Part shown: positions 8,641 through 63,339 of the stretch, piece after piece
How positions within the stretch are numbered: the stretch's first letter is position 1
Layout of the letters: the number at the start of each line of letters is the position of its first letter
NCBI GenBank assembly: GCA_017475035.1
Contig: JAFVGK010000117.1
Location: forward strand, 1 to 64,000
Length of the DNA stretch: 64,000 nt
Reading direction: 5' to 3'
Origin: Blautia sp.
GTDB taxonomy: Bacteria > Bacillota > Clostridia > Lachnospirales > Lachnospiraceae
Made by a program: the position numbers and the translations under genes
Notes under the pieces: generated by a model
Told to the model about the DNA's origin: nothing
The model's input: only the letters and a program-made list of their open reading frames with translations
The model's database searches: none

Positions 8641-8740
8641 GCCCTCCTTTCAAAACGAAGTTTTGTACGTTGGCTCAACGTCTTCGAATGACGATTTTGT
8701 TCCTGCGGCAGACGGGCTGCCGAAGACAAAATCAGTCTCC
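8641..8740 (-). repeat. R1 repeat upstream of rbsA-type gene (copy 1)
   Basis: Full-length copy of the CTTCGG type. On the minus strand it runs from GGAGACTGATTTTG through a GTCTTCGG/CGAAGAC pair and a CAAAACTTCGTTTTG hairpin to the Shine-Dalgarno sequence of the ATPase gene. It lies inside the operon, between the binding-protein and ATPase genes. Confidence 0.85.
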
Positions 8741-8781
8741 TATCTGTTTTGGAGGCCGGAGCCTTATAAAGACTCCCTACT

Positions 8782-8820
8782 AAAAAAGCTGCCGGGCTGC
8801 TATCTCCAGCCTGGCAGCTT
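8782..8820 (-). terminator. Intra-operon terminator after the binding-protein gene
   Basis: On the minus strand AAGCTGCC and GGCAGCTT enclose a second AGGCTG/CAGCCC stem and are followed by six T. Partial termination here would give more binding protein than transporter, as is common in such operons. Confidence 0.8.
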
Positions 8821-8886
8821 GTCATTCCTTTTCGCAGAGCCGCGCATCCATTTGACGTAAGCCTCACCCAAAGCGCGGCTTATTTT

Positions 8887-9960
8887 TTAGAACAGATCGT
8901 CTACGTTCTCAGCAGTGCCGATGCAAGGAGCATTTCCGATCAGGCAGTTGTTATCGCCAACTACAAGATTTACAGCCTCATATCCGGGAGCTGCGCCATT
9001 GTCAGAAAGGTCAGAGCCCTGGCCTACTTCAACGCCGGTAAGGACATCATATGCGCACAGGCAGGCAACATAACCGGAGAGAGCCGGATCCCATGTGGTA
9101 ACAGAGTAAATCTGGCCGGCCTTCAGCTCTTCTGCATAAGAAGAAGGAACGCCTGCTGCGATAATCTTGACCTGGTCTTCCAGACCAAGCTCTACAACAG
9201 CCTGGGACACGCCGCCGGCATCAGTGGAGCAGTGGCAGATGAAGCCAACCAGATCCGGATTGCTCTTAAGAACCTGCTTTGCCTGCTCATAAGCGGTAGT
9301 GGTGGATTCCTGAGACTCGCAGGTCGGAACCTCATCGTTAATCAGCTCAAGGCCGGGAGCCTGCTCTTTCAGGTATGCATATTCAGCATTTGCATAGTCC
9401 ATATGTGTAATGGAAGTGGTGTAGCCGACCATGATGGCATATTTGCCTTCGCCGCCGGTAGACTCGATCAGAGCGTTCGCCATAGCCTCAGCATACTGCT
9501 CGGTGTTGAAAGCCTCGGTGTCATACAGGCAGTTCGTCAGGTTGGAAGCTTCATGTCCGATCACGACAACGCCGCTGTCGAGAGCGTTCGCGAAGGACTC
9601 CTCTAATGCGCTGGCATCATTCGGAACAATGATGATCGCGTCATAATCCTGGGTCAGAAGAGAATCAATGATCTCAAGCTGGGAAGCAGCGTCTGTGGTA
9701 GCCGGGAACTGTACTGTCGCGTCAATGCCATAGTCCTCACCGAACTTTGTCACGCCCTCTTCCAGGCGGGAGAACCACTCAGCAACACCCTTCACGACGA
9801 CAGCCATTTTGAACTCAGAAGGATCCTTTTCCGAAACAAAATCTGCCGGATCATAACCGTTCTTAACCTCATAGCCCTCGGGAAGTGCCATAACGCTGAC
9901 ACTCATTGCTGCTGCCATAGCGACCGCCAAGACTGATGCAACGACTTTCCTTAATTTCAT
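8887..9960 (-). CDS. Sugar ABC transporter substrate-binding protein (RbsB-like)
   Basis: Extracellular sugar-binding protein of 357 residues and first gene of the rare-ketose operon. The N-terminus (MKLRKVVASVLAVAMAAAMS) is a signal peptide; no clear lipobox Cys is seen. The mature part is a type I periplasmic-binding fold with FKMAVVVKGVAEWFSRLEEG near residue 50, the ligand-loop segment YDAIIIVPNDASALEESF, and DPALSGYVACLCAYDVL toward the end. It feeds the two RbsC permeases and the RbsA ATPase downstream. A strong promoter lies about 230 bases upstream. Confidence 0.92.
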   Translation of the reverse strand: MKLRKVVASVLAVAMAAAMSVSVMALPEGYEVKNGYDPADFVSEKDPSEFKMAVVVKGVAEWFSRLEEGVTKFGEDYGIDATVQFPATTDAASQLEIIDSLLTQDYDAIIIVPNDASALEESFANALDSGVVVIGHEASNLTNCLYDTEAFNTEQYAEAMANALIESTGGEGKYAIMVGYTTSITHMDYANAEYAYLKEQAPGLELINDEVPTCESQESTTTAYEQAKQVLKSNPDLVGFICHCSTDAGGVSQAVVELGLEDQVKIIAAGVPSSYAEELKAGQIYSVTTWDPALSGYVACLCAYDVLTGVEVGQGSDLSDNGAAPGYEAVNLVVGDNNCLIGNAPCIGTAENVDDLF

Positions 9961-10195
9961 CTGGATGTCCTCCTTAATAGAAAAATGTGGTTTTTGTATA
10001 TCAAAAGGCCGCGCGCTGCAAGCCTGATGATTCTGTCCGGACCGGCTTCAGATCGAGCCGGCATTACAGCATATTGAACAAAAAAGCAGCCAACCCGGAA
10101 TAGATAGTATCCGAAACGAGCACAATCCGTTGCTTTTCTGCAACCGGAAATCTGTGCATCATCAGATTTCTTTTCTTGGGTAATCCTTTACTCAC

Positions 10196-10223
10196 ATTAT
10201 ACATGTTGTATCTCTGTTGTCAA
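10196..10223 (-). promoter_or_regulatory. Sigma-A promoter of the rare-ketose operon
   Basis: On the minus strand TTGACA (10218-10223) and TATAAT (10196-10201) are 16 bases apart, both at full consensus. Transcription would start near 10189 and leave a leader of about 230 bases before the binding-protein gene. That leader includes a GAAATCTG/CAGATTTC hairpin at 10147-10170. Confidence 0.8.
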
Positions 10224-10301
10224 TAGTTTTTCACAATTCTGCTTTTTCCACAAATTCAGATCATATTTTTTGTGCAAAATTATCAGTGGGTCAAAGTGGA
10301 C

Positions 10302-10329
10302 TTTACATTTATCGTGAATTGGATATAAT
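10302..10329 (+). promoter_or_regulatory. Sigma-A promoter of the kinase/aldolase unit
   Basis: TTTACA at 10302-10307 and TATAAT at 10324-10329, with a 16-base spacer. It is divergent from the promoter at 10196-10223, about 80 bases away, so one regulator could act on both. The leader of about 235 bases contains R1 copy 2. Confidence 0.75.
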
Positions 10330-10468
10330 TAGAAATGAAAGAGATTTACGGAAGCGGCTTTGTGACATGACTTCATGCACTGCGGGAACAGATTTTTTGT
10401 ATCATTATACAACACGTCCTCTGCACGGTTTGAAAATCGTATCCCCTTTGGAAATCACATGATCATAA

Positions 10469-10568
10469 AGACTTATTGTTCCTACGGCTGTGTTTTTTGC
10501 AGGCGTGGCTGCAAAATAGTCATCCGTGGTCTTGAGTCAATGTATAGCACTTCTTTTTGGAAGGAGGA
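10469..10568 (+). repeat. R1 repeat upstream of the rhamnulokinase-like gene (copy 2)
   Basis: CCACGG-type copy with worn outer stem: CTACGGCTG, a T-run, GCAGGCGTGG, then TAGTCATCCGTGG, GAGTCAA and the ribosome binding site AAGGAGG. It ends six bases before the start codon at 10574. Confidence 0.8.
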
Positions 10569-10573: not shown

Positions 10574-11938
10574 ATGAACGCATCCAATGATGTCAGGAAT
10601 GAAAAGCCGGCCGGCGTTCCCTGTTATTTATCCATTGATATCGGCTCTATCTCCGGGCGCCACATTGTTGGATGGATGGAGAGCGGGGAATTGCGGCAGC
10701 GGGAGATCTATCGCTTTTCCAATGCTTCTATGAAACAGGACGGACATCGGATCTGGGATATCGACCATCTGTTTGAAGAAGTGATCAACGGAATCCGCAA
10801 AGCATTCTCGGAATTTCCGGAAATCCGTTCCTTATCGGTGGATACCTGGGGCGGGGACTATGTTCTGCTTCGCGGGGATCAGGAGATCCGTCCCTGCTTT
10901 ACGTACCGGGATTTCCGTACGGAAGAAGCTGTCCGGGAAGTACATAAGCTCGTCCCTTTTTCTGAAATCTATCGCCGGACCGGCTATCAGTTCGGCCCTT
11001 ACAACACGATTTATCAGCTCTACAGCGATAAGCTCATGGGACGCCTCGAAGGAGCGACGGATTTTTTGATGATGCCGGAGTATCTTTTGTATCGTCTCAG
11101 CGGCGTCAAGAAAAAAGAAGCGACCGACAATTCAACCACCAGTCTCGTAAACCCGCGCACGGGACAGTTTGACCTGGAGCTTGTACGCATGCTGGATCTG
11201 CCGGAGCATCTGTTTCCAAAGCTTTATTCTCCCGGAACGGTGCTCGGCCCTCTTCGTCCGGAGATCGCAAAAGAAACAGGGGGGAACTGCCCGGTTATCC
11301 TGTGCGCAACCCACGATACGCAAAGCGCCGTCAGCGCGATCCCTATGGAAGACGACCAGATCTACATTTCTTCCGGCACCTGGTCGCTGCTGGGGGTTAA
11401 GCTGGATCACGCCATCACAAGCGAGGAAGGCGCTGCGGCCGGCTTTTCCAACGAAGTCGGGCTGGAGTACAATTGCTACCTCACAAACATTCCGGGAATG
11501 TGGGTGCCCGAGCAGCTTCGCCGGGAATTATGCCCGGGTAAGGATTACAGCCGGATCGTGGCCGAAGCCGAGGCGAGCGCCTGCAATTCTATTTTTGACC
11601 CGGCGCTGCCCCGTTTTAATGCTCCGGACAGCATGTCCCGTGAAATATATGAGGATCTGAAAGCCCGCAGGGCAGGAAAACTGCCTGAAAATACCGGTGA
11701 TTATTTTTGTTGCGCTTACCATTCCCTTGCAGACTGCTACCGGCGGTCTATCCAAAGTCTGGAGAAAGTAACCGGGCAAAACTACAAAAAGATTTATATC
11801 ACGGGAGGCGGGGCCAAAAACGACTTTCTGAACAGACTGACAGAAGATTATACCGGAAAAGAAGTAGTCGCCTGTCCGTTTGAAGCAACCTCCGCGGGAA
11901 ACCTGCTGCTGCAATGGAAGGTCGATCAATCCCTGTAA
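10574..11938 (+). CDS. Rhamnulokinase-family FGGY carbohydrate kinase
   Basis: Cytoplasmic sugar kinase of 454 residues. RhaB-type marks are DIGSISGRHIVGW near residue 20, SVDTWGGDYVLL near residue 77, CATHDTQSAV with the catalytic-base Asp, SSGTWSLLG for the nucleotide site and ITGGGAKNDFL near the C-terminus. RhaB phosphorylates L-rhamnulose, and relatives act on L-fuculose and other ketoses at C1. No rhamnose or fucose isomerase is in the window. The next gene is a class II aldolase that would split a ketose 1-phosphate, and the divergent operon supplies a transporter and a ketose 3-epimerase. Substrate is therefore uncertain. The start at 10574 follows AAGGAGG in an R1 element. Confidence 0.85.
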   Translation: MNASNDVRNEKPAGVPCYLSIDIGSISGRHIVGWMESGELRQREIYRFSNASMKQDGHRIWDIDHLFEEVINGIRKAFSEFPEIRSLSVDTWGGDYVLLRGDQEIRPCFTYRDFRTEEAVREVHKLVPFSEIYRRTGYQFGPYNTIYQLYSDKLMGRLEGATDFLMMPEYLLYRLSGVKKKEATDNSTTSLVNPRTGQFDLELVRMLDLPEHLFPKLYSPGTVLGPLRPEIAKETGGNCPVILCATHDTQSAVSAIPMEDDQIYISSGTWSLLGVKLDHAITSEEGAAAGFSNEVGLEYNCYLTNIPGMWVPEQLRRELCPGKDYSRIVAEAEASACNSIFDPALPRFNAPDSMSREIYEDLKARRAGKLPENTGDYFCCAYHSLADCYRRSIQSLEKVTGQNYKKIYITGGGAKNDFLNRLTEDYTGKEVVACPFEATSAGNLLLQWKVDQSL

Positions 11939-12037: not shown

Positions 12038-12070
12038 TATACAATAAACAATATATTTGCGATAAAAAAC

Positions 12071-12172
12071 GGAGACATATTTTGCCCACGGCTGCGTTTT
12101 TTGCAGGCGTGGCTGCAAAAAACGCAGCCGTGGGCATTGAGTCAAAGTACAAAACTTCATTTTGTGAGGAGG
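12071..12172 (+). repeat. R1 repeat upstream of the aldolase gene (copy 3)
   Basis: CCACGG-type copy in which the interior has become a near-perfect inverted repeat: CCCACGGCTGCG, T-run, GCAG, loop, CTGC, A-run, CGCAGCCGTGGG. It keeps GAGTCAA, the CAAAACTTCATTTTG hairpin and GAGGAGG, and ends nine bases before the aldolase start. Confidence 0.85.
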
Positions 12173-12181: not shown

Positions 12182-12841
12182 ATGTTAGAAGAACTTAAAA
12201 GCGCAGTGATCCAGATTGGCAGACAGGCACAAAGAGATGGGCTTTGCAAGCATAAATCCGGGAATTTTTCCGCCCGCGACGCCGAGACCGGCTATTTTGT
12301 TATTACGCCCTCTGCAGTCGACCGCGAGGTACTGACTCCCGAAGACATGATCGTGATGGATGTGGACTGCCATGTGATTGAATACCGCAAAGGTCTTCGT
12401 CCAAGCAGTGAGTCCCTCATGCACGCCGCTGTTTACCGTTCCAGGCCGGAGCTGCGCGGGATCGTCCACACCCACTCCAAATACGCCACCGTATTCGCCA
12501 CCTTAGGCAGAGCGATTCCTCCCATGGTGAACGAAATGATGGCTTTGAACAATAAAGACTTCTATATCCGCGTCGCCGAATATGGCCGTGCCGGAACCAG
12601 ACAGCTCGCCGATAATGTAGCGGCCGCGCTGAAAGACGCAGACTGTGCCCTTATGTACGCTCACGGAGCCATCGCGGTAGATGCGCAGAATATCGAAGGA
12701 GCATACCTGAAAGCCTGCTATATTGAAGAAATGGCCGAGGTTTACCATCACGTCCTCGCAATCAGCCAGGGAAAGGAAGCTCCGATCCTTCCTTTCGAAG
12801 AGCTGCACGACTGGGGATATCCTGAGGAAATAAAGTTCTGA
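12182..12841 (+). CDS. Class II aldolase (L-fuculose/L-rhamnulose-phosphate aldolase family)
   Basis: A 219-residue zinc-dependent aldolase that would split a ketose 1-phosphate into dihydroxyacetone phosphate and an aldehyde. FucA-family marks are KSGNFSARD near residue 25, the catalytic Glu in RPSSESLMHAAVY, the zinc ligands in HTHSKYATVF near residue 97 and the third His in MYAHGAIAVD near residue 160. It follows the RhaB-like kinase in the same direction, giving a kinase-then-aldolase route. The start at 12182 has GAGGAGG from an R1 repeat; the open frame further upstream lies inside hairpins and is not expected to be translated. Confidence 0.88.
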   Translation: MLEELKSAVIQIGRQAQRDGLCKHKSGNFSARDAETGYFVITPSAVDREVLTPEDMIVMDVDCHVIEYRKGLRPSSESLMHAAVYRSRPELRGIVHTHSKYATVFATLGRAIPPMVNEMMALNNKDFYIRVAEYGRAGTRQLADNVAAALKDADCALMYAHGAIAVDAQNIEGAYLKACYIEEMAEVYHHVLAISQGKEAPILPFEELHDWGYPEEIKF

Positions 12842-14558: not shown

Positions 14559-15353
14559 TTACTGAAACAGGCTGTCTGTCGGCACCGCAAGCTGATTGGG
14601 GATAATCGGCTTATCGATCCAATGGATCTCAGAGAAATCGACGCATTGCAGAAAAGCAGCCCGGACATATTTCATCCGGTCTGCAACCTGCCCGTTTTCT
14701 TCAACCTTGATGTAGAGACCCTCCATCAAGCCTGATGTTTCTGTTTCCCTGCAGTTCCGTTCCGGATCCAGTCCCAGTTTAACGGCCGCGTCCCAAAGAT
14801 TCTGCCTCTGGTTTCCGGTGACGTACCCCGACTGTCCCAGAAGCTCCAGCATTTCTTCTTTACTTGTATAATATCCGCTGCCGAGCACAGGGACAGAAAC
14901 AACAGGCACTTCCTTCAGCATCTTATGCCTTGTCGGGGTATCCAGGAATATACCCGTTTCACGGTCAAGAATATCAAACTCCAGAAAATAATGAGGAAGG
15001 GCGTCATAAAAAATCGTATGCTTTGCGTACATCCATTCGCCATACATAATGTACTTTGTTCCCAGCACGTCAAAGAACTCATCCCTGTGCGCCATTGCCC
15101 ATTGCTTCATCAGATTGTAATGCCGCTCCCGATATCCGCCGGTCAGATAATGACCGCGGCTTTGCAGCAGGAGCCCTCCGTCAGCATCGAAGGAAACTGC
15201 CGTATTTGCGCCGTCACATTTTTCTTCTATCACCAGGTGCCTGTCCTTAATGAATTCAAACGGAATCTGCCTCAGATCCTCATCCCCGGGCTGAAGGCGT
15301 GATCCTTCGATATGCGGGGTCCGGGGATATTTGTGTATTGTGAATAAATCCAT
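14559..15353 (-). CDS. RNA ligase family protein (DRB0094/Rnl-like)
   Basis: An ATP-dependent nucleotidyltransferase-type ligase of 264 residues. The adenylated lysine is Lys45 in motif I, EEKCDGANTAVSF. Motif III-like YGEWMYAKHTIFY lies near residue 125, motif IV is MEGLYIKVE near residue 213 and motif V is DRMKYVR near residue 228. It would seal 5'-phosphate/3'-hydroxyl RNA ends. It is the first gene of a two-gene unit with the HD-polynucleotide kinase. Its ribosome binding site GGAGGAG comes from R1 copy 4a, the most divergent of the family. RtcB, a different kind of RNA ligase, is encoded at 33.1 kb. Confidence 0.88.
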   Translation of the reverse strand: MDLFTIHKYPRTPHIEGSRLQPGDEDLRQIPFEFIKDRHLVIEEKCDGANTAVSFDADGGLLLQSRGHYLTGGYRERHYNLMKQWAMAHRDEFFDVLGTKYIMYGEWMYAKHTIFYDALPHYFLEFDILDRETGIFLDTPTRHKMLKEVPVVSVPVLGSGYYTSKEEMLELLGQSGYVTGNQRQNLWDAAVKLGLDPERNCRETETSGLMEGLYIKVEENGQVADRMKYVRAAFLQCVDFSEIHWIDKPIIPNQLAVPTDSLFQ

Positions 15354-15361: not shown

Positions 15362-15457
15362 ACTCCTCCTATAACGCACGTTATAGATTGTGACTTACTG
15401 TCCGGATGACTATTTTGTACCCTATCGCGCTGCGCGCTCTAGGACAAAATATGTCTC
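15362..15457 (-). repeat. R1 repeat, divergent type, upstream of the RNA ligase (copy 4a)
   Basis: It keeps GGAGACATATTTTG, CAAAATAGTCATCC and the final GGAGGAG but replaces the stems: TGTCC pairs with GGACA, and the hairpin before the ribosome binding site is CTATAAC/GTTATAG instead of CAAAAC/GTTTTG. These are compensatory changes. Confidence 0.85.
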
Positions 15458-15500
15458 CTCCCAAAAAGAAGTTTTGTACGCTGACTCAATGACCACATAT
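15455..15500 (-). repeat. R1 repeat, 3' half only (copy 4b)
   Basis: It carries the TTGAGTCAGC, CAAAACTTC hairpin and GGGAGGAG end, joined head-to-tail to copy 4a through a shared GGAG. Confidence 0.75.
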
Positions 15501-15510
15501 GTAATGTGCA

Positions 15511-16361: not shown

Positions 16362-17639
16362 ATGAATACAAGGTGGCCAATCAACGAATTTCATATTCAG
16401 GTATTGATCCTGGAGCTTCTGTTATGCACAAACCTCCGGAAGAGATCCCGCTTCTGGCTGCGTTTTCTGCCTTTTACGGCAGCATATCTTATACTGCCCC
16501 ATCTTATCCCCGGCGGATTTTTATCTCCCTATCTGAGTATCGGCTGGTTCCAGTTCAGCTTTCTCATCATGTTTATCCTTTCCGCCGGCTTACTCTTCTT
16601 CTGCTTTCAGATCGACATTAAACAGCTTATATTCTGTTGTTGTGTTGCCCATACCCTCCAGCACATCGTGCACTGCGCAGCGAGAGTGTTCAGCCTTGCG
16701 TTCGTTCTCAGCGGCATTCCTTCCCAGGCTGTAGAGTGCCTGCTGATGTTCTTTGCGTTTCTTGCCGTACAGTTTCTCTTTCGTACACACCTATTTACAA
16801 ATCAGACAGCCGAAGCGAAAAATATCAACATCCTTTCCTTTGGCGTTATTTCCACTTTGATCGTCTATTTCGTCAGTTACTGGACGACCTCCTATGAAGG
16901 GGAAACCATCGGAGAACATTTTTTTGACCTCTTTGCCTGCGCCCTCCTTCTGATTGTGCTTTTTGACGGATTCCGGATCCGCAAGGCGGAACGCGATCAG
17001 CTTATCATGCTTCGTCTTCTCCGCCAGGAGCAGGAACAGAACAAGCTTTCCAAGACGACCGTAGAGGTCATTAACAGGAAATGCCACGACCTGAAGCATC
17101 AGATCTCTGCCCTTCGGACCATGACAGACAAGGAGAAGGAAAAAAGCATTACGGATCTGGAGCGTGCCGTACTCATCTATGACCGTTTTCCCAAAACAGG
17201 CAGCAATGATCTGGATCTGATCCTGGCAGAAAAAAGTCTGATAGCGGAAAAGCAGCAGATCACGCTCCAGTGTATCGCCGACGGGGAAAAAATCAGTTTC
17301 ATGCAGACAGAGGACATCTATTCTCTCCTCGGCAACGCCCTGGACAACGCCATCGAAGCAGCCGGACAGGAGCCTGTGGCAGAGAACAGGATCATCACCC
17401 TCAAGCTGTTCGAGAAAAGCGGTTTTCTGTATCTTCATCTGGAAAACCCATGCAAAACAAGGCCTGTTTTTGCGGACGGGCTCCCGCTGACTTCCAAAAG
17501 CGACGTCGATTATCATGGCTTCGGTGTAAAATCCATGCGTTTCATTGCGGAAAAATACCAGGGAGCCCTTACCACCGGCTGGGAAGAAGGCGTTTTTTCC
17601 CTTGACGTCATTTTTCCCAGACAGCCGCTCCTTCCATAA
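16362..17639 (+). CDS. GHKL-type sensor histidine kinase (AgrC-like)
   Basis: Membrane kinase of about 425 residues. Five or six hydrophobic segments span residues 10-205. A coiled region leads to the phospho-acceptor His in NRKCHDLKHQIS near residue 236 and a GHKL ATPase domain with GNALDNAIEAA and DYHGFGVKSM. AgrC relatives sense peptides, but no AgrB or AgrD gene is nearby, so the signal is unknown. The start is either 16356, overlapping the regulator stop as ATGA, or 16362; GGAGG at 16348-16352 fits 16362 better. It is a paralogue of the kinase at 56587-57912. Confidence 0.88.
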   Translation: MNTRWPINEFHIQVLILELLLCTNLRKRSRFWLRFLPFTAAYLILPHLIPGGFLSPYLSIGWFQFSFLIMFILSAGLLFFCFQIDIKQLIFCCCVAHTLQHIVHCAARVFSLAFVLSGIPSQAVECLLMFFAFLAVQFLFRTHLFTNQTAEAKNINILSFGVISTLIVYFVSYWTTSYEGETIGEHFFDLFACALLLIVLFDGFRIRKAERDQLIMLRLLRQEQEQNKLSKTTVEVINRKCHDLKHQISALRTMTDKEKEKSITDLERAVLIYDRFPKTGSNDLDLILAEKSLIAEKQQITLQCIADGEKISFMQTEDIYSLLGNALDNAIEAAGQEPVAENRIITLKLFEKSGFLYLHLENPCKTRPVFADGLPLTSKSDVDYHGFGVKSMRFIAEKYQGALTTGWEEGVFSLDVIFPRQPLLP

Positions 17640-17654
17640 TAAGTGTTGACCCTC

Positions 17655-17716
17655 TGTCTTCAGATGACGATTTTGCTGCTTCGGCAGCAAAGACGCCGAA
17701 GACATAATCCGTCTCC
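17655..17716 (-). repeat. R1 repeat, 5' half, opposite to flanking genes (copy 5)
   Basis: A CTTCGG-type copy with GTCTTCGG and GAAGACAGAGGGTCAA but without the ribosome-binding end. It is the exception in the family, lying antisense between two plus-strand genes. Confidence 0.7.
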
Positions 17717-17722
17717 CGCTTG

Positions 17723-25569: not shown

Positions 25570-25601
25570 AAGGTTCAGAAGAATTTAATCTTCTGAACCT
25601 T
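25570..25601 (-). terminator. Terminator at the end of the MerR fragment
   Basis: AAGGTTCAGAAG and CTTCTGAACCTT pair perfectly with an 8-base loop; on the minus strand T-rich sequence follows. The MerR frame runs into this stem. Confidence 0.75.
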
Positions 25602-25937
25602 ATATAAATGACAGCATCGACAAAAGCCTGATTTTATGGAGCGTTTCGCACCAGAGCTGCTCTTAGGATTGCCACGTAATAAATGGATCCATTCTCGCGT
25701 CTGAATCACTGTATGCTGATTTGTAACAAGCTCTGTTTCAGCGAGAGAGAAACCAAAAGAACGATACATTCTGGCACGTACCAGAGAGGTGATATCCAGA
25801 TAAGAGTATTTCCTGTAACTGTTCTCGTCTGTTCGTCTGGAAGAGATAATACCTGCTCTTTCGTAGCTTCGTATTCCTTCGATGGAAAGCCCTAAAAGCT
25901 TCGCCACCTTTCCGATTGAGTATTCTGCTTTTGCCAT
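25575..25937 (-). pseudogene. Truncated MerR-family regulator
   Basis: The N-terminal 75 residues are a good MerR winged helix (AEYSIGKVAKLLGLSIEGIRSYERAGII, then YSYLDITSLVRARMYRSFGFSLAET). The coiled-coil linker and effector domain are missing. After about residue 85 the frame becomes a Lys/Ser/Cys-rich tail and ends inside the terminator stem at 25570-25601. A 3' truncation is the simplest reading, although a short DNA-binding protein could still be made. The true start is the ATG at 25937, because the in-frame TTG upstream overlaps the GGAGGAG ribosome binding site donated by R1 copy 6. Confidence 0.65.
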
Positions 25938-25949
25938 TACGATTTTCTC

Positions 25950-25998
25950 TCCTCCCAAGACGAAGTTTTGTACGCTGACTCAATGGTCACGGGTGCCG
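25950..25998 (-). repeat. R1 repeat, 3' half (copy 6)
   Basis: CCGTGACCATTGAGTCA, CAAAACTTCGTCTTG and GGGAGGAG directly before the MerR fragment. The 5' half of the element is missing. Confidence 0.75.
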
Positions 25999-26013
25999 GA
26001 CATATGGACCTTT

Positions 26014-26640
26014 TCACGCTATATCCCGTGGCATTAAAACAATCACCTGATACTCCGGCATCTGGTCCGTCGAGATCCAGCTGTCCTCCATTACATGTAC
26101 CGAGTCCATATGCTTTGTAAAATCCTTCACCGTTGAGATCACATCAAAGCCAAACCTTCCCTTGCTGTCCCGATAATGCATGGGAATCACCAGCCTCGGC
26201 TTTATCAGCTGTACCAGTTTGGCTGCCTGTTTCCCGTCGATTGTAAAATGACCGCCCACCGGGATCAGACACACATCAAGGCCTCTCAGCTTTTGGATCT
26301 GCTCTTCCTCCGGTTCACATCCAAGGTCTCCCAGATGCGCGAGACGGATATCCCCGTCATTTACGATGTGGATGGTGTTCGGTCCGCGCTTCGCGCCTTT
26401 CACCTCGTCATGCCAGGTTTCCATTTTCTCAACAGTGAAAGGACATGTCTGCCCTTCCCCGATCTTTATAAGACTCCTCGCGTTATGGTCGCCATGCTCA
26501 TGGCTGCACAGAACCATATCCGCGCTTTCCCTGAGCGGCTTCAGTCCGGGAACAAATCCATCCTCGTAGGGATCCGTGATAATCGTATACCCCTTGCTCT
26601 CAATCTTAAAACAGGAATGACCGATCCATGTTATTTTCAT
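26014..26640 (-). CDS. Metallo-beta-lactamase-fold hydrolase (UPF0173-like)
   Basis: A 208-residue cytoplasmic MBL-fold protein. The metal site is seen in WIGHSCFKIE at the N-terminus, CSHEHGDHN (HxHxDH) near residue 46, a later Asp/His region (HLGDLG near residue 101) and MHYRDS near residue 155. This matches the UPF0173/UlaG-like branch of small MBL hydrolases, whose substrates are mostly unknown. The start has GAGGAGG, part of a worn R1 repeat, ahead of it. It is not obviously co-transcribed with a functional neighbour. Confidence 0.85.
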   Translation of the reverse strand: MKITWIGHSCFKIESKGYTIITDPYEDGFVPGLKPLRESADMVLCSHEHGDHNARSLIKIGEGQTCPFTVEKMETWHDEVKGAKRGPNTIHIVNDGDIRLAHLGDLGCEPEEEQIQKLRGLDVCLIPVGGHFTIDGKQAAKLVQLIKPRLVIPMHYRDSKGRFGFDVISTVKDFTKHMDSVHVMEDSWISTDQMPEYQVIVLMPRDIA

Positions 26641-26644
26641 ACCG

Positions 26645-26733
26645 TACCTCCTCTTACAATGAAAAAAGTAAACCGAAATGCCTTCCGAATGACGATTCTG
26701 CTTTTTTCACCTTATCATTTTTTTGTCTCTATG
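26645..26733 (-). repeat. R1 repeat, degenerate (copy 7)
   Basis: Recognisable parts are GAGAC, GCAGAATCGTCATTCGGAAG and the final GAGGAGG before the MBL gene. The hairpins have decayed. The rest of the gap up to 27090 holds no feature I can support. Confidence 0.55.
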
Positions 26734-27090
26734 TCCAGCAGAAGACTGATTTTATCTTCGACGCCAATACTCGCGAGACCAATTATATGGGCTTTTCCAC
26801 TTAATACCGCGGTATATGCGGAAGTACTAAAATATCCGTTCCGGTTATTAAGTACTTCCAGTATAACTGTCGAAGCCAAACAGAACGGATTTTTGTTCGT
26901 GAATCACCCCCGGTTTCCATGACATCGGTTTTTTAATCTTCTTTCTTAAATTATTAATCGACTTTTAATCTTGCATAAAGGACATACTTAAGTTCATGGA
27001 GTACTATAAGCCCATCAAATGAAACAAACAAATGACTGCACGGGACAACGAACAAGCAAACGTCCCTCATCAGAAAGGAAGGTCACGATT

Positions 27091-40431: not shown

Positions 40432-40460
40432 CTTTGCGGTTCATTTTCCCGGATTCAATA

Positions 40461-41395: not shown

Positions 41396-41459
41396 GGTAA
41401 ATCTCCTCATGTAAGCCAAAGTAAAACAATTTTATAAAATGATTATACCATAATCCTTT

Positions 41460-43386: not shown

Positions 43387-43391
43387 TCTTC

Positions 43392-43496
43392 TTCCTCCTC
43401 ACAAAACAAAGTTTTGTATGTTGACTTAATGACCACGGATGACTATTCTGCAGCCACGTCTGCAAAAAACGCAGCCGTGGGAAAAAATATGTCTCC
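43392..43496 (-). repeat. R1 repeat upstream of the Gfo/Idh/MocA gene (copy 12a)
   Basis: CCACGG-type copy ending in CAAAACTTTGTTTTGTGAGGAGG; G-to-A in one arm of the last hairpin is matched on the other arm (CAAAACTTTGTTTTG). Tandem with copy 12b. Confidence 0.88.
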
Positions 43497-43587
43497 TCAC
43501 ATAATGCAGTTTTGTACGTTGACGCAATGTCTTCGGTTAACGATTTTGTCTTCTGCAGCCAGGCCGCCGAAAACAAAATCAGTCTCC
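43493..43587 (-). repeat. R1 repeat, tandem neighbour (copy 12b)
   Basis: CTTCGG-type copy with GGAGACTGATTTTGTTTTCGG and CCGAAGACATTG. Its GGAG end is fused to the GGAG start of copy 12a, as in copies 10a/10b. Confidence 0.85.
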
Positions 43588-43629
43588 TGTTAACAGGCAG
43601 TTCACGCCAGTGTTCTGATTCGTGAAATG

Positions 43630-44445
43630 TTACCTGCCGCGGACCATCTTCATGTATCTTCCGTCTTCCAGCACCACCGCGTCGGAATCCTCCACGGCGT
43701 CCGGAGATTCATCCTCGGTCATGATCCAGCCCCTGTAATCCGTCTCCTCCAGGTAACGTACGATGGATGCAAAATCGATGATTCCTTTTCCCATAGTCGC
43801 CCATACATGAGACGCATCCATGTCCTTAAAATGCACATGCTGGGTGATGTCCCTGTGCTCCCGGATCATTTTAAGAGGATCGATCCCTCCGTTTGCCATA
43901 TGTCCCACATCAGGAGCATATCCGATCCCTCCGCTATAAAGGCCCTCAAACATCACCTTGTAATCTTCCTCATACCTGAAAATGGAATTCTCCCCGGAAT
44001 TTGGGTGAAATACCGGAACGATCCCCCGTTCCTTCGCCCTTTCCGCGATGCACTTCAGGCAGGAAAGCTGATTTTTCTGCTTTTCACGCAGGTTGTGCTC
44101 CCGAACCGGATCCGCCGCCACATGAGCCAGCATCAGCTTCGCCGTGGGGAAATGAGCAAGAAACTCTATAGCTTCATCCAGGTTCCTGCGTTCCTCATCC
44201 GTTTCCTTTTCAAAAAGCCAGTCCTCATGAACCGCCAGCGCGGCAAACATAATGCCTTCCCGATCCAGAAGCTCCTTCAGCTTCGCCCAGTCATGATAAT
44301 AATCCCCCAGCATGACAATCTCGGCTTCCATGCCGGTAAATCCTGTCTTTTTTAAAACCTCGACCATATGCGGAACCTTTCCCGCAAACTTCTCTACCCG
44401 CATCTGCCAGGGGTAGGTCTGGCTTCCATACAGTATCCGGGACAT
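43630..44445 (-). CDS. Sugar phosphate isomerase/epimerase family protein (xylose isomerase-like TIM barrel)
   Basis: A 271-residue AP-endonuclease-2-type TIM barrel. It starts SRILYGSQTYPWQM and carries the metal-binding positions of the family in FTGMEAEIVML near residue 40, VPVFHPNSGEN near residue 150, GYAPDVGHMANGG near residue 180, HVHFKDMD near residue 207 and GWIMTEDES near residue 240. This is close to IolE/IolI-like and hydroxypyruvate-isomerase-like proteins. With the next gene (Gfo/Idh/MocA) it resembles inositol-type or ketosugar catabolic pairs. The start at 44445 has GGGAGGAGGG from R1 copy 13; the longer upstream frame is repeat sequence. Confidence 0.87.
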   Translation of the reverse strand: MSRILYGSQTYPWQMRVEKFAGKVPHMVEVLKKTGFTGMEAEIVMLGDYYHDWAKLKELLDREGIMFAALAVHEDWLFEKETDEERRNLDEAIEFLAHFPTAKLMLAHVAADPVREHNLREKQKNQLSCLKCIAERAKERGIVPVFHPNSGENSIFRYEEDYKVMFEGLYSGGIGYAPDVGHMANGGIDPLKMIREHRDITQHVHFKDMDASHVWATMGKGIIDFASIVRYLEETDYRGWIMTEDESPDAVEDSDAVVLEDGRYMKMVRGR

Positions 44446-44450
44446 TCTTA

Positions 44451-44554
44451 CCCTCCTCCCGAAACGAAGTTTTGTAGGTTGACTCAATGACCACGGATGA
44501 CTATTTTGCGGCCGCGCCTGCAAAAAAACGCAGCCGTGGGCAAAATATGTCTCC
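44451..44554 (-). repeat. R1 repeat upstream of the epimerase gene (copy 13)
   Basis: One of the best-preserved CCACGG-type copies, from GGAGACATATTTTGCCCACGG to CAAAACTTCGTTTCGGGAGGAGG. It lies between the binding-protein gene's terminator and the epimerase. Confidence 0.9.
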
Positions 44555-44558
44555 ACTA

Positions 44559-44646
44559 TGGCAGAGAGAGGCCTGGCCAATCTCTGCCCTCAGGCGGGTC
44601 GACGTTCGCCGACAGGCGAAATATTACATTACGCCGTCCCTGCCAT
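44559..44646. repeat. R2 repeat, copy 5
   Basis: GGCAGAGAGAGGCC..ATCTCTGCC and a GACGTTCGCCGACAGGCGAA hairpin within GGCG/CGCC arms. Divergent in sequence but with the same two-hairpin plan as other R2 copies. Confidence 0.55.
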
Positions 44647-44650
44647 ATGA

Positions 44651-44687
44651 GCAAAACCCCTGGCGCCATCCGCCAGGGGTCTTTTCA
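44651..44687 (-). terminator. Terminator after the second binding-protein gene
   Basis: On the minus strand ACCCCTGGCG and CGCCAGGGGT pair around a five-base loop and TTTTGC follows. It separates transporter genes from the catabolic genes. Confidence 0.85.
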
Positions 44688-44717
44688 TCTGAATGACAGA
44701 AAACTGCTTTTTATATA

Positions 44718-45692
44718 TCATCCAAGATATTCATCAACATTTTCTTCTGTTACAAGAACGAAAGGAATCACAGGGTTCGCATCAAACTCTTCACCCTTGG
44801 CAAGAGCCTCAACGATGGCAATAGCGCCGTTGATCTGGCCAACGCCGTCCTGAAGGATTGTAGCCTTCATGGTGCCGTCCTTAACCATCTGAAGCGGAAC
44901 CTCAACGCCGTCAACGCCGATGCAGATGACATCGCTTCTGCCGTTATCGTTGCACATCTTCTGTGCAGCGGCGGACATACCATCGTTGTCGCAGATGATG
45001 GCTACCAGCTCATCGCCGTACTTCGCAAGAGAATCAGAAGCAGCGTCAGATGCCAGATTGCCGTCCCACTTGGTATCGAAATCGCCAACCATCTCAAATT
45101 CCGGATGCTCATCCATAACCGCATGCATACCTTCGGTACGCTGAACCTGAGCGGAGTTGCCAAGGACACCGTTGCAATGGATAAACTTTCCGCCGTCCGG
45201 GCAGTTGTCCACAACCCACTGAGCCAGCATATTACCGGCCTGAACATCATCGGATCCTACATAAGCGATGGCAAGATCATCGCAGCTGGCGGATTTGGAA
45301 TTAACTTCGATGACCTGGATGCCGGCATTTACCATCTGTACAAGAGCCGGATCGGAAGCCTCTGCCTCAGCAGGAAGGAAAATAACGATATCGCAGTTCT
45401 TTGCAATACAGTCTGCCGCACGGTCGATCTGCTTGTTGGGATCAGTCTCGCCGTCCAGAAGTCCGGTCCACTCATCAATGATGCCATCCTTAACAGCCTG
45501 ATCAAAATATTCCTGTGCTCTGGAGTTGATCGGCGCATGGAAGGGATCTGTGAAATTCTTGGAGATGTAGCCAAGGACTACCTTTCCGTCTCCATTGACA
45601 TCGCCGGGAACGGCGTCTTCAGCCATAGCAGCCTGACCCATAGCAAGAATCATAGCGGTTGTCATGACAGCGACCAAAGCTTTCTTAAACAT
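44718..45692 (-). CDS. Sugar ABC transporter substrate-binding protein (RbsB-like)
   Basis: An exported sugar-binding protein of 324 residues. The signal peptide is residues 1-24 (MFKKALVAVMTTAMILAMGQ, cleavage near AMA). The type I fold follows: KVVLGYISKNFTDPFHAPINSRAQEYF near residue 37, IVIFLPAEAEASDPALVQMVNAGIQVIEVNS near residue 100 and CIGVDGVEVPLQMVKDGTMKATILQD near residue 260. The mature N-terminus holds DVNGDGKV, which resembles a calcium-binding EF-type loop (Asp, Asn, Asp at spacing 1, 3, 5). It belongs to the second transporter and is encoded after the permease. Confidence 0.92.
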   Translation of the reverse strand: MFKKALVAVMTTAMILAMGQAAMAEDAVPGDVNGDGKVVLGYISKNFTDPFHAPINSRAQEYFDQAVKDGIIDEWTGLLDGETDPNKQIDRAADCIAKNCDIVIFLPAEAEASDPALVQMVNAGIQVIEVNSKSASCDDLAIAYVGSDDVQAGNMLAQWVVDNCPDGGKFIHCNGVLGNSAQVQRTEGMHAVMDEHPEFEMVGDFDTKWDGNLASDAASDSLAKYGDELVAIICDNDGMSAAAQKMCNDNGRSDVICIGVDGVEVPLQMVKDGTMKATILQDGVGQINGAIAIVEALAKGEEFDANPVIPFVLVTEENVDEYLG

Positions 45693-45806
45693 AGGTTACC
45701 TCCTCTTTGTAAATGAAATTGATATGATCTGTTATAACCCGCGGCCCCACAAGCCACGGAGAATAACCTTGCGTAATAACAGCATGCATGAATCCGTAAT
45801 AACCGA

Positions 45807-46784
45807 TTAATGCTTGTTGCGGTTCATGACCATATCCAGCATGACTGCGCCGATGATGATCAGACCCTTGACGATAGACTGATAATAAGAAGACACGCCG
45901 ATCATATTCATGCCGTTGTAGATCAGTCCGATGATGAAGATACCAAGCACGCAGCCGGGAATCGTGGCAATACCACCCGCGAAGGAGGTGCCGCCCAACA
46001 CAGCCGCTGCGATGGCGTCTGTCTCATAGCCGACGCCGATATTGGACTGTGCGGAACCGGTCTTGGATGTATAGATCATGGCAGCCAGACCGGCAAGCAG
46101 ACCGGAGATGGTATATACGCCAACCAGCACCCAGAAGCGGGAGACACCGGAAGCTATTGCTGCATTCACATTTCCGCCTACCGCAAAGATATAACGCCCG
46201 AACTTCGTCCAGTGCAGGATCAGGTACATCACAATGGTCACCACAATAAAGATTATGATAGGCATCGGGATGCCGAAAAGCTTATTGGAATAAATTCCCG
46301 TAAACCATGCATTGGTCAGCATGATCGCGCGGCCGCCTGTGATAACCTGTGAAAGGCCGCGGATTACCAGCTGCATGGAAAGGGTGACAACAAAGGGGAA
46401 CATATTAAACTTCGCGATCAGCAAGCCGTTGATAAATCCAAAGGCTGTCGCAACCAGAACTCCGGCTAATACGGAAAGAAAAGCCGGCCAACCGAGCACC
46501 CCCATAGTCTGACCGATGATGCAGCTGGTCAGGGCAAGCTGTGCGCCAACAGTCAGGTCAATACCTCCGGTTGTAATAGCAATACACAGGCCATAGCAGA
46601 GAAGACCGTTGATCGAGATCTGCGTGGCGACGTTGATGATATTTTTGAGGGTCATAAATCGTGGTTCCATAATCGCGATCACAACCATCATGATGATCAG
46701 CACAAAGCCGATACCATACTGACCCATCAGCTGTCTGAATTTATCCTGTCTGGAAATCTGCCCTACACGAGGTGAAGAAGCCAT
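45807..46784 (-). CDS. Sugar ABC transporter permease (RbsC family)
   Basis: A 325-residue membrane permease with about nine hydrophobic segments. Family marks are LCIAITTGGIDLTVGAQLALTS near residue 66, FINGLLIAKFNMFPFVVTLSMQ near residue 117 and the cytoplasmic loop GRYIFAVGGNVNAAIASGV near residue 197. It is the only permease in this transporter, so it probably acts as a homodimer. The start has GGAGGAGG from R1 copy 14. It is co-directional with the ATPase gene upstream and the binding-protein gene downstream. Confidence 0.92.
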   Translation of the reverse strand: MASSPRVGQISRQDKFRQLMGQYGIGFVLIIMMVVIAIMEPRFMTLKNIINVATQISINGLLCYGLCIAITTGGIDLTVGAQLALTSCIIGQTMGVLGWPAFLSVLAGVLVATAFGFINGLLIAKFNMFPFVVTLSMQLVIRGLSQVITGGRAIMLTNAWFTGIYSNKLFGIPMPIIIFIVVTIVMYLILHWTKFGRYIFAVGGNVNAAIASGVSRFWVLVGVYTISGLLAGLAAMIYTSKTGSAQSNIGVGYETDAIAAAVLGGTSFAGGIATIPGCVLGIFIIGLIYNGMNMIGVSSYYQSIVKGLIIIGAVMLDMVMNRNKH

Positions 46785-46792
46785 ATTATTTT

Positions 46793-46875
46793 TCCTCCTC
46801 CCAAAACAAAGTTTTGTACGTTGATTCCATGTTTTCAGATGACGATTCTGCAGCTTCGATAGTGGAAACTGCCGG
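46793..46875 (-). repeat. R1 repeat between ATPase and permease genes (copy 14)
   Basis: The 3' two thirds are well kept (GAATCGTCATCTGAAAACAT, CAAAACTTTGTTTTGGGAGGAGG). The 5' hairpin has decayed. It supplies the permease ribosome binding site inside the operon. Confidence 0.75.
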
Positions 46876-46880
46876 TTTCT

Positions 46881-48398
46881 TTACGCAACGCCGAACGCTT
46901 TACTCAGGATCACTTCCTGAGTCGCTTTCCCGCTGACGATTTCTTCTCTCATGATTTCGCCGCTGATGCTTCCCTCATGGTATACAATGACACGGTCACT
47001 CATGCCCATGATCTCAGGCAGCTCAGAGGAAACCATGATGATAGCCATACCCTCCGCGGCAAATTTGCTCATAAGGGTATAAATCTCCGCCTTCGCGCCT
47101 ACGTCCACGCCTCGGGTCGGCTCGTCAAGAATCAGGAGCTTTGGCTCCGCCATCAGCCATTTGGAAAGCACTACCTTTTGCTGATTTCCACCGGACAGAG
47201 AGTAGGCAGTATGCTCAATGCTTGCTGCCTTCAAAGTCAGATTTTTTGAAACCTCTTCGACCTCTTTCTTCTCACGCCTCTGATTGAGCAGCAGACCCTT
47301 CTGACGCTCAGGCAGGCTTGGGAGGGAAACATTTTCACGGATCGAACGGAGCAGGCACAGACCGAAGTTTTTACGGTCTTCATTGACCATACAGATACCT
47401 TTTTTGATAGCTTCACTGGGGTGTTTAAAATGGAGTTCTTCGCCGTTCAGATAGATCTTGCCGGAGGAAATGGGATCCATGCCGAAGATCGCCTTCATCG
47501 TCTCACTGCGGCCGGAACCTACCAGGCCGGAGAACCCGAGAATCTCTCCCGCATGTACCTCAAAGCTGATATCCTCAAAGCCGTCGCCGGAAATATGTTC
47601 TGCCTTGAAGACCACATCTCCGATGGGGCAGTCCACCTTCGGGAACTGATTCTCAACCTTACGGCCTACCATCATGGCGATCAGATCATCGTTACTCACG
47701 TCTGCGAGAGGAGAAGTCCCGATAAACTCACCGTCACGGAAGACAGATACCGTATCGCAGATCTCATAGATCTCGGCCATACGATGGGAAATATAGATAA
47801 TGGCTACGCCCTGCTCCCTCAGGTTCCGGATTACGCGGAAAAGATGCTGTGTCTCCTGTTCATCCAGGGAAGAAGTAGGCTCGTCCATGATGATCAGCTT
47901 TGCGTTCGTAGATACTGCGCGGATAATTTCCACCATCTGGACATCTGCAAGCTTCAGATCCCTGATCATGGTCGTAGCCGGATAAGGGAACCCAAAGTCA
48001 TCCAAAATCTTCTGGGTTCTTTCGTTCTGTTTTTTCTTATTCAGGAATATGCCTCTGGTGTCCTCGCGATTGAGGAAAATACTCTCTGCGATGGTAAGAT
48101 GCGGCTCCGGATTCAATTCCTGGTGGATCATAGAAATTCCGCTCTTGATGGCATCTACCGGCCCATGAGCCTGATAGGGCTTTCCATCAAATGTCATCGT
48201 ACCCTGGTCCTGGCGGTACAGGCCTATCACGATTTTCATCAGTGTGGATTTTCCTGCACCGTTTTCCCCCAGCAGTGCATGTACCTCTCCCGGTTTTACG
48301 TGGAGCTGAACATTTTTCAGCGCCTGGGTTCCGCCGAAGGATTTTGAGATACCCTCACAGCTGAGGATGTATCCGCTTGTGTTCTGAGTGCTGTCCAA
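46881..48398 (-). CDS. Sugar ABC transporter ATP-binding protein (RbsA/MglA family)
   Basis: A 505-residue tandem ATPase. Module one has GENGAGKST near residue 45, LKLADVQMVEIIRAV and LIIMDEPTSSLD. Module two has GLVGSGRSE near residue 290, LSGGNQQKVVLSKWL near residue 400 and LLILDEPTRGVDVGAK, so both nucleotide sites look intact, unlike the first operon's ATPase. It is the first gene of the second sugar operon, with a promoter 230 bases upstream. The start is TTG at 48398, six bases after AAAGGAGGAGG. Confidence 0.92.
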   Translation of the reverse strand: MDSTQNTSGYILSCEGISKSFGGTQALKNVQLHVKPGEVHALLGENGAGKSTLMKIVIGLYRQDQGTMTFDGKPYQAHGPVDAIKSGISMIHQELNPEPHLTIAESIFLNREDTRGIFLNKKKQNERTQKILDDFGFPYPATTMIRDLKLADVQMVEIIRAVSTNAKLIIMDEPTSSLDEQETQHLFRVIRNLREQGVAIIYISHRMAEIYEICDTVSVFRDGEFIGTSPLADVSNDDLIAMMVGRKVENQFPKVDCPIGDVVFKAEHISGDGFEDISFEVHAGEILGFSGLVGSGRSETMKAIFGMDPISSGKIYLNGEELHFKHPSEAIKKGICMVNEDRKNFGLCLLRSIRENVSLPSLPERQKGLLLNQRREKKEVEEVSKNLTLKAASIEHTAYSLSGGNQQKVVLSKWLMAEPKLLILDEPTRGVDVGAKAEIYTLMSKFAAEGMAIIMVSSELPEIMGMSDRVIVYHEGSISGEIMREEIVSGKATQEVILSKAFGVA

Positions 48399-62911: not shown

Positions 62912-63078
62912 TTCAGCGGTCCTCCGGGGATAAAATATGAAAAGGATATCATTTGCTGAATTTTGATTTCCGGTGTCAACGTATTATTAACGTATTATTC
63001 GGCCCTGCTTCCCGCATCCATCGTTTTTCTGCCCTGACCGGGCTCGCCGGATATGAAAAGTCATGGAAATTTATCTTT

Positions 63079-63107
63079 ATTATATGCTCTAATCCGGACA
63101 GTGTCAA
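63079..63107 (-). promoter_or_regulatory. Perfect-consensus sigma-A promoter of the hybrid kinase operon
   Basis: On the minus strand TTGACA (63102-63107), a 17-base spacer and TATAAT (63079-63084). Transcription would start near 63072, giving a leader of about 160 bases. Confidence 0.8.
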
Positions 63108-63162
63108 TGTATGATGTTTTCTCCGACCGATCTAATCGTTGAAAAATTTTTAAATCCGACAC

Positions 63163-63193
63163 AAAAAACCGGCCGGACTTTTCGTCCTGCCGG
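63163..63193 (-). terminator. Terminator after the R1 copy and micro-ORF
   Basis: CCGGC-GGAC and GTCC-GCCGG pair around GAAAA, followed by six T on the minus strand. It ends the transcript coming from the MFS gene. Confidence 0.85.
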
Positions 63194-63204
63194 CCAGATG
63201 AATC

Positions 63205-63237
63205 TCATAAATCTTTGGCTCTCTGCAGCACATCCAT
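63205..63237 (-). CDS. Candidate 10-codon micro-ORF behind an R1 element
   Basis: On the minus strand ATG begins five bases after GGGAGGAG and reads MDVLQRAKDL then TGA; a terminator follows directly. The perfect ribosome binding site comes from R1 copy 15. It may be a real leader-like peptide, a remnant of a lost gene, or chance. No homology can be judged at this size. Confidence 0.3.
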   Translation of the reverse strand: MDVLQRAKDL

Positions 63238-63238
63238 A

Positions 63239-63339
63239 GTCTCCTCCCAAAACGAAGTTTTGTACGTTGACTCAATGGCTGCGGATGACTATTTTGCCCA
63301 CGCCTGCAAAAAGCGCAGCCGTGGGCAAAATATCTCTCT
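63239..63339 (-). repeat. R1 repeat between the MFS gene and the micro-ORF (copy 15)
   Basis: Well-preserved CCACGG-type copy: TTGCCCACGGCTGCG, GCAGGCGTGG, AAAATAGTCATCCG, GAGTCAA, CAAAACTTCGTTTTG, GGGAGGAG. It is the one complete copy not in front of an ordinary gene. Confidence 0.88.

Follow-up and report, generated by a model that had tools for sequence, protein, structure and literature searches.

The window analyzed here, a 64,000-nucleotide stretch of a draft Blautia sp. genome (contig JAFVGK010000117.1 of assembly GCA_017475035.1; positions below are those of the window), carries between its genes many copies of a hairpin-rich repeat, R1, of about 90–105 bp. In order, R1 comprises GGAGAC, an ATTTTG/CAAAAT hairpin, GTCATCC, GAGTCAA, a CAAAAC/GTTTTG hairpin and GGGAGGAG, a Shine-Dalgarno (SD) end that a start codon follows. 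The hairpins near the two ends are referred to as P1 (5′) and P3 (3′). Three types have this frame in common and differ in the P1 hairpin and the terminal hairpin: type A (GGAGACATATTTTGCCCACGG...), type B (GGAGACTGATTTTGTCTTCGG...) and type C (...CCGGACAGTAAGTCA...TATAACGTGCGTTATAGGAGGAG). The R1 sequences of the window, together with two sequences that resemble them, are as follows.

8641–8742, minus strand: type B R1 (95 bits); SD for the ABC-transporter ATPase gene at 7145–8653, which has a GTG start.
10466–10567, plus strand: type A R1, partly degenerate (74 bits); SD for the FGGY sugar kinase gene at 10574–11938.
12070–12172, plus strand: type A R1 (104 bits); SD for the class II aldolase gene at 12182–12841.
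15455–15507, minus strand: 3′ part of R1 whose 5′ half has diverged or been replaced; lies immediately upstream of the copy at 15362 and is joined to it in GGGAGGAG.
15362–15459, minus strand: type C R1, in tandem on the 3′ side of the copy at 15455; SD for the RNA ligase gene at 14559–15353.
17627–17717, minus strand: type B R1 with a degenerate 3′ end (64 bits); a start codon does not follow directly.
25948–26027, minus strand: R1 with an intact 3′ part and a diverged 5′ half (42 bits); SD for the MerR-like regulator gene within 25575–25958.
26641–26725, minus strand: distant R1-like leader recognized by eye (GTCATTCGG, a terminal hairpin and GAGGAGG); before the metallo-beta-lactamase-fold gene at 26014–26640.
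32950–33083, minus strand: split or stretched R1 (45 bits) with an intact 5′ part at 33026–33081; the SD end lies near 32950 and is followed by a TTG start.
34312–34413, minus strand: type A R1 (101 bits); SD for the RtcB-family gene within 33095–34354.
35585–35682, minus strand: type A R1, 5′ member of a tandem pair; matched by the model.
35489–35589, minus strand: type B R1, 3′ member of the same pair and 54% identical to its neighbor; before the LysR-type gene.
40376–40424, plus strand: palindrome akin to the P1 arm of type B copies (GAGACTGGTTTTG...CAAAATCAGTCTC), without an SD end; matches only the 5′ part, and weakly.
43492–43588, minus strand: type B R1, 5′ member of a tandem pair; matched by the model.
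43394–43497, minus strand: type A R1, 3′ member of the same pair (108 bits); SD for the GFO/IDH dehydrogenase gene at 42253–43386.
44452–44555, minus strand: type A R1 (114 bits); SD for a xylose-isomerase-like gene (frame 43630–44580), with the ATG that R1 serves at 44445.
46794–46883, minus strand: R1 with a diverged 5′ half, matched by the model; SD for the transport permease gene at 45807–46784.
63240–63340, minus strand: type A R1 (111 bits); the ATG at SD distance opens a 10-codon open reading frame (ORF) only.

The original prediction, made from the sequence of the window, had placed copies at 18 coordinates. R1 sequence is recognized at 16 of them by a hidden Markov model (HMM) or a covariance model; the palindrome at 40377 matches weakly (covariance model 23 bits, E = 0.007; HMM E = 7.9e-5) and is probably not an R1 copy, and the leader at 26645 is matched by neither model. 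Some of the 16 are partial: those at 15455 and 25950 are 3′ parts, that at 33028 is a 5′ part, and that at 46793 is without a recognizable 5′ end. Copies likewise bear out the layout it gave, from GGAGAC through the terminal hairpin to the start codon, and Pfam confirms that the genes behind them belong to unrelated families (ABC ATPase, FGGY kinase, class II aldolase, RNA ligase, MerR, metallo-beta-lactamase fold, RtcB, LysR, GFO/IDH, xylose-isomerase-like and the transport permease family BPD_transp_2). The LysR-type gene (34607–35481, minus strand) reads in two overlapping frames, with the helix-turn-helix in 35011–35481 and the substrate domain in 34607–35083, which reflects either a frameshift or an assembly error. 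The 10-codon ORF behind the last copy (63231–63271, minus strand) possibly encodes a leader peptide.

R1 is a genuine repeat family. Its 31-base 3′ module occurs, with up to three mismatches, at 102 places in the genome from which the window comes (G000, a 5.08-Mb draft in 200 contigs, 93.6% complete, where the window lies on contig C90), while the reversed pattern occurs at none, which rules out a chance repeat. The covariance-model search proposed with the original prediction, run with a model built from 38 copies, yielded at least 150 copies in G000, every scored place being a match. Unless stated otherwise, the counts below refer to 837 kb of this genome, namely the window and 40 stretches picked for their R1 content, so that the density there is not genome-wide; they hold 152 matches to the model. 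The copies used differ by analysis: 148 for a loose start-codon rule, 149 for the start-codon test proper, 100/125 for tandem copies, 61 and 29 for flanks, 129/155 for the pairing test, 81 for the openness of new against native SDs and 82 for that of old against new SDs. Two type C copies at unrelated loci (one at 15362 in the window, the other on contig C145) are 99% identical, and for this reason R1 activity may be recent; the median nearest-neighbor identity of 0.86 suggests that most copies are older. On another contig (C75, locus L324) a further repeat, ATGATTCAGGCGACAAAAGGTCAT..., adjoins R1 copies and seems to cut them.

The position of R1 relative to genes is highly skewed. Of the copies whose 3′ end is intact, 149 in all, 97 precede a start codon (2–15 nt after the SD and opening an ORF of at least 80 amino acids), 26 precede another R1, and 26 precede neither; the commonest distance from SD to start is 7 nt. 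The same test succeeds for 10/149 copies when applied outward from the R1 5′ end and for 579/2244 of all GGAGG sites, and under a looser rule the count is 108/148 copies as against 3635/20000 random positions. The placement before start codons that had been claimed from the window is therefore a property of the family, and the enrichment, whose absence would have spoken against the claim, is strong. In the window a qualifying start is missing behind the copies at 17655 and 63239 (the latter with its 10-codon ORF) and behind the 5′ member of each tandem pair.

Comparison with relatives indicates that R1 is an insertion. At rpsR, which lies after ssb and was recognized by Pfam, R1 is present in G070, another genome of the genus, and absent from G000. 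Removing 91 nt from the G070 leader restores the G000 layout, AAGGAG-G...ATGGCA, with 98 of 129 aligned columns identical; without the removal, the alignment opens a gap directly after AAGGAG. A second such site is that of the permease (46793), which is filled in G000 and in a further genome of the genus, G032, where the sequence reads AAGGAG, element, GAGGAGG. All eight R1-free relatives examined here (L211–L218) run from stop codon to SD to ATG, and in seven of them TAAGGAGG stands before the ATG, right after or within the stop codon. These are named relatives found by way of the permease protein, the nearest named ones being uncultured Lachnospiraceae; the RUG names among them presumably stand for rumen assemblies. 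The G032 copy is diverged, being unmatched by the R1 model and found by a multi-species model, R2 (E = 4.6e-4). With R1 removed, the sites of G000 and G032 are identical to that of L213 at 111/155 and 112/154 columns, respectively. The R1 model gave no match, at E up to 0.05, in the 32 of 54 named loci of the permease search to which it was applied; L210, one of the loci it leaves unmatched, holds a diverged copy by model R2. At both rpsR and the permease, R1-free relatives have a plain SD, and R1 starts just 3′ of the GGAG of that SD and ends in a GGAG of its own. Around the permease, from 45055 to about 48300, DNA identity to a G032 contig (C65) is 88%, though the gltX proteins of the two genomes are only 78% identical; horizontal transfer of this transport operon is possible.

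The comparison extends to orthologous intergenic regions at large, as the original prediction had suggested. Of 108 G000 genes preceded by R1, 22 have a homolog (at least 50% identity) in 1.18 Mb of G070; R1 is absent upstream of 21 of these and is represented at the remaining one by a deletion derivative. For 12 of the 22 the upstream gene is matched as well, and in none of these does G070 have R1. The intergenic lengths in G000 and G070 are 274/193, 500/809, 159/60, 203/205, 111/10, 323/183, 136/88, 187/120, 319/151, 140/24, 131/2 and 295/11, so that the gap is the longer one in G000 in 10 of 12 cases. The reverse comparison gives the same picture: among 21 copies of G070 that have a 3′ end, 14 stand before a start, four of the 14 genes have a homolog in the G000 stretches, and R1 occurs in the 130 nt upstream of none of the four. 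At adk and at gltX (genes recognized by Pfam; the best 30 of 55 and of 59 matching genus genomes, respectively), R1 is found at one locus in 30, that of G000 each time, although four of the 30 loci in each set come from genomes that bear R1.

The sequence entered can be read from the flanks. On their 5′ side, 61 non-tandem copies show base frequencies similar to those at 249 native SDs: A stands at positions −1, −2 and −3 with frequencies of 0.66, 0.57 and 0.52 beside R1 and of 0.55, 0.45 and 0.47 in native SDs, as against 0.28, 0.27 and 0.24 at GGAG sites overall (n = 7693). A G follows the last GGAG at frequencies of 0.54 (R1) and 0.53 (native SDs). The 3′ end of R1 is (G)GGAGGAG, and the presence of GGAG on both sides fits either a 4-bp target site duplication or an element end plus target. 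Another copy lies directly upstream of 30/100 full copies, typically in the join GGGAGGAG followed at once by ACATATTTTG. Pairs of two full copies overlap by 2–4 bases in 13 of 15 cases, and 10 of the 15 join different types, as assigned by a crude rule that leaves a member of three pairs unassigned. Local duplication was considered as the source of these arrays and rejected: tandem neighbors are less alike than random pairs, with a median identity of 0.60 as against 0.66 over all pairs. Of eight close type C matches, five have another R1 immediately on their 5′ side, the arrangement that targeting of the start-proximal SD would produce. Insertion, its orientation, its boundary and its target are established by these comparisons.

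Some copies bear on how R1 spreads. One (L330) is a chimera of a type A 5′ half and a type C 3′ half, which together with the many similar copies available could point to homologous recombination or gene conversion between leaders, with no dedicated transposition. Empty SDs and R1 ends, however, appear to have too few bases in common for homologous exchange, and orientation and boundary are exact at the filled and empty pairs; we consider this explanation highly improbable. The chimera would also fit template switching, as expected were R1 to move via RNA, its transcript being reverse transcribed and integrated at an SD as the purine-rich 3′ end anneals to the CCTCC strand. Partial matches that retain only the 3′ end outnumber those that retain only the 5′ end, 34 to 22 in raw counts (most of the 22 are weak and many lie on the opposite strand), which is in keeping with such a route; yet selection that keeps the SD end would explain 3′-only copies equally well, and recombination also yields chimeras. 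An RNA route seems to us rather unlikely.

R1 is preserved as a fold. Across 42 sequences from seven genomes, P1 and P3 are paired in 82.1% of cells, and 18 of their 22 pairs have changed on both sides, a covariation score that none of 500 shuffles reaches. Minimum-energy folds of all five copies tried show the GGAGAC of the left boundary paired wholly or partly with GTCATCC; P0, as this helix is called, is paired in 92.5% of cells and includes 17 double changes at one pair. Furthermore, the 5′ arm of P1 is also able to pair with the bases after GTCAT: the pairing energy is −7.97 kcal/mol with each copy's own segment as against −5.78 (sd 0.22) with permuted segments (129/155 copies), and −8.07 as against −6.08 (sd 0.41) in 26 copies outside G000. 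Within type A alone, one of 2000 permutations is as good. Because the middle of P1 uses the same bases, this pairing would be either an alternative state or a pseudoknot. Folds that include the flanks predict the old SD, displaced to the 5′ side, to be less open than the new one (mean unpaired 0.23 vs 0.38, p = 7.5e-5, lower in 55/82), and the new SD to be slightly more open than native SDs (0.446, n = 81, vs 0.383, n = 238, p = 0.012). The latter effect, weak as it is, disfavors a plain switch in which the SD is sequestered.

A conserved fold in sense orientation before start codons is also what would be expected of a family of cis-regulatory leaders, inherited vertically and placing many genes under common translational control, with the absences being losses. 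The fold covaries across species; a glutamate synthase-like gene (our reading) has different R1 types at the same place in G000 and in G079, another genome of the genus; the openness of the new SD slightly exceeds that of native ones; and a switch is conceivable, since the old and the new GGAG are both possible pairing partners of GTCATCC. Set against this, the downstream genes have no pathway in common, R1 occurs in few genomes of the genus (at least seven of 64 under strict filters) and at one locus in 30 for each of adk and gltX, an ordinary SD stands at the exact R1 boundary in the R1-free ortholog, and two-thirds of the full tandem pairs (10/15) join different types. Nor are the same kinds of gene served, with R1 kept at orthologs, as in a riboswitch or regulon: the genes are unrelated and 21 of 22 G070 homologs are without it. 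Such a leader family leaves the patchy distribution unexplained, and we regard it as improbable; common translational control is possible as a secondary effect of R1.

We consider it very probable that R1 is a non-autonomous mobile element that enters the GGAG of an SD and rebuilds the SD. Filled and empty sites, the G070 absences, tandem junctions within SDs and the 99%-identical copies support what the original prediction had offered as one of its readings, that of a mobile element carrying a ribosome-binding site with it. On the evidence of the empty and filled sites and the flank statistics, R1 inserts directly 3′ of the GGAG core and in one orientation. The SD at its own 3′ end would leave the native start codon with a ribosome-binding site, and the mRNA would gain a structured leader. 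New copies may enter the SD end of older ones and so build tandem arrays; the junctions are visible in the sequence, and their order is what we infer. Covariation and permutation suggest that what is kept is the fold, comprising P1, P3, P0 and the covarying pairing of the 5′ arm. P0 may have two parts to play: as a guide that recognizes the GGAG target in transposition, in the manner of the guides of IS200/IS605 elements, and as a mask over the old, displaced SD, which would steer ribosomes to the new one. Movement would most likely depend on a trans-acting enzyme acting on a folded single strand, and our leading guess is transposition of the IS200/IS605 kind, which fits best because of the fixed short 5′ sequence, the hairpins near both ends and the internal stretch complementary to the target.

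Several observations weigh against this account. An autonomous relative is absent: the 837 kb contain neither an autonomous element with R1 ends nor a split pair of R1 ends within 6 kb. The sole match to a Y1 transposase in G000 is a fragment at a contig edge with other ends, a search that the collapse of repeats in a 93.6%-complete, 200-contig assembly could possibly affect, and no right-end guide for GGAG was seen by eye. Apart from the pair with 17 double changes, P0 scarcely varies, and the number of its pairs that have changed on both sides is reached in 111 of 500 shuffles; the 5′-arm pairing is weak within type B, where 43 of 2000 permutations are as good. The 26 copies that precede neither a start codon nor another R1 imply that the SD position may owe something to selection. 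As to the filled and empty sites, the left GGAG of the G000 permease copy reads AGAA, and this copy is common to G000 and G032, so that some copies must be old. The adk gap is nearly equal in the two genomes (203 in G000, 205 in G070, where other sequence occupies it), the matched gene upstream of gltX is not adjacent (500 vs 809), and R1 accounts for only 81 of the extra bases in the gap of 295 vs 11. The G032 ortholog of the gene behind the tandem pair at 35489/35586 has a different leader and offers no clean empty site. Lastly, G000 is a draft and most of the named relatives are metagenome assemblies.

A role of R1 as a carrier of sense promoters was also considered and rejected. A scan of 33000–47000 found 25 promoter-like sites where 16.9 were expected, and those within R1 are antisense only; moreover, some insertions sit where the G070 gap is 2, 10 or 24 nt. 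A sigma-70-like site (TTGAC, 17 nt, TATTTT or TATTCT) lies antisense in three type A copies (34339–34367, 43421–43449 and 44479–44507, plus strand), and type A R1 may thus carry an antisense promoter that fires.

R1 is reminiscent of several known elements. Among the closest are the palindrome-associated transposable elements (PATEs) of the IS200/IS605 group, described as short and non-autonomous, with a hairpin toward either end and a fixed short sequence on whose 3′ side they insert (PMC7290912). R1 is likewise short and non-autonomous, has a covarying hairpin near each end (P1 and P3), inserts in one orientation 3′ of a fixed GGAG (rpsR, permease, flanks and tandem junctions) and may recognize its target by base pairing. 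In contrast to PATEs, its target is the SD core, its 3′ end is itself an SD, and start codons follow it. The candidate guide of R1 lies 3′ of the left hairpin, whereas that of IS608 is described at the hairpin's 5′ base (PMC7290912). Because the guide is on the other side of the hairpin, the right guide is missing and the only Y1 sequence in G000 is a fragment with other ends, we do not file R1 as a PATE. The pneumococcal repeats BOX, RUP (about 107 bp) and SPRITE, reported at 125, 110 and 30 copies in one genome (PMC3049150), resemble R1 in size, copy number, clustering, insertion into one another and a probably parasitic nature. By description rather than by sequence, R1 differs in being without terminal inverted repeats and in lying mostly 2–15 nt from a start in one orientation. 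The TAACTGA repeats of Beggiatoaceae also occur as many intergenic copies before unrelated starts, mostly forward, and are described as sets of two to six 7-bp units lying across the place where a ribosome-binding site would be expected and bearing little resemblance to an SD (PMC4679880); R1, by contrast, is a folded element of 100 bp that enters an SD and supplies one. Prokaryotic miniature inverted-repeat transposable elements (MITEs) are, like R1, non-autonomous, multi-copy and able to affect neighboring genes (PMC10969869); a term search of the main text of that review found no mention of Shine-Dalgarno, ribosome binding or the start codon. The ends of R1 agree as inverted repeats at a mean of 2.0 of 14 positions, as against 3.4 in shuffled copies (125 full copies, ungapped), and without terminal inverted repeats R1 is not filed as a classical MITE.

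Under strict filters, and with the best 63 candidates per genome scored so that counts are lower bounds, R1 occurs in at least seven of 64 genus genomes (G000, G018, G032, G068, G070, G071 and G079). Variants differ among them: G068 has its own, G079 has one near type A, and G071 has one near type C plus others. Among 392 genomes of the order, with the best 10 candidates of each scored, model R2 matched G000 and at least one copy in each of two genomes from other genera of the family. That in G296 precedes a trypsin/PDZ (HtrA-like) protease gene and that in G146 an MFS_2 sugar-transporter gene; by eye both have the R1 frame with an SD at the end, and the R1 family is therefore wider than the genus. 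A match to an Rfam family or a known MITE had been named as contrary to a novel element. Rfam 15 gives no match in the window at gathering scores, which rules out a known RNA family, and the four matches obtained in 43300–44700 at E up to 5 all lie far below the cut-offs; no MITE like R1 was found in the papers, a comparison made by description and not by MITE sequence. The open-access literature, to which the search was confined (subscription journals and preprints lie outside it), yielded no element with the R1 layout, and viral contigs gave no match to either of two exact R1 patterns. Two further stretches with several matches came to light in these comparisons: 26807–26869 of the window is a dispersed repeat with 21 similar stretches (76–94% identity) listed in G032, and about 65 bases at 5015–5080 match seven places in G079 at 77–82% identity, as either a dispersed repeat or a conserved domain.

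Taken together, R1 is well supported as a mobile ribosome-binding site, and is both real and unusual. Most transposable elements are tolerated only where they are harmless, and a ribosome-binding site is normally about the worst place for an insertion; an element that rebuilds the site could rewrite leaders across much of a genome, those affected including the leaders of the genes for ribosomal protein S18, adenylate kinase and glutamyl-tRNA synthetase. It is a tentative idea, and one we hold to be on balance doubtful, that R1 is the first member to be seen of a class that targets translation-initiation sites, in which GTCATCC both guides insertion and masks the displaced SD. If true, insertion beside adk, gltX and rpsR would be nearly harmless and hundreds of copies could spread. 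R1 would offer natural, portable translation-initiation modules, and it would open to testing the question of how 5′ leaders, and with them perhaps new regulation, come into being in large numbers: sister species in which a gene has a structured leader in one and not in the other provide a clean natural experiment.

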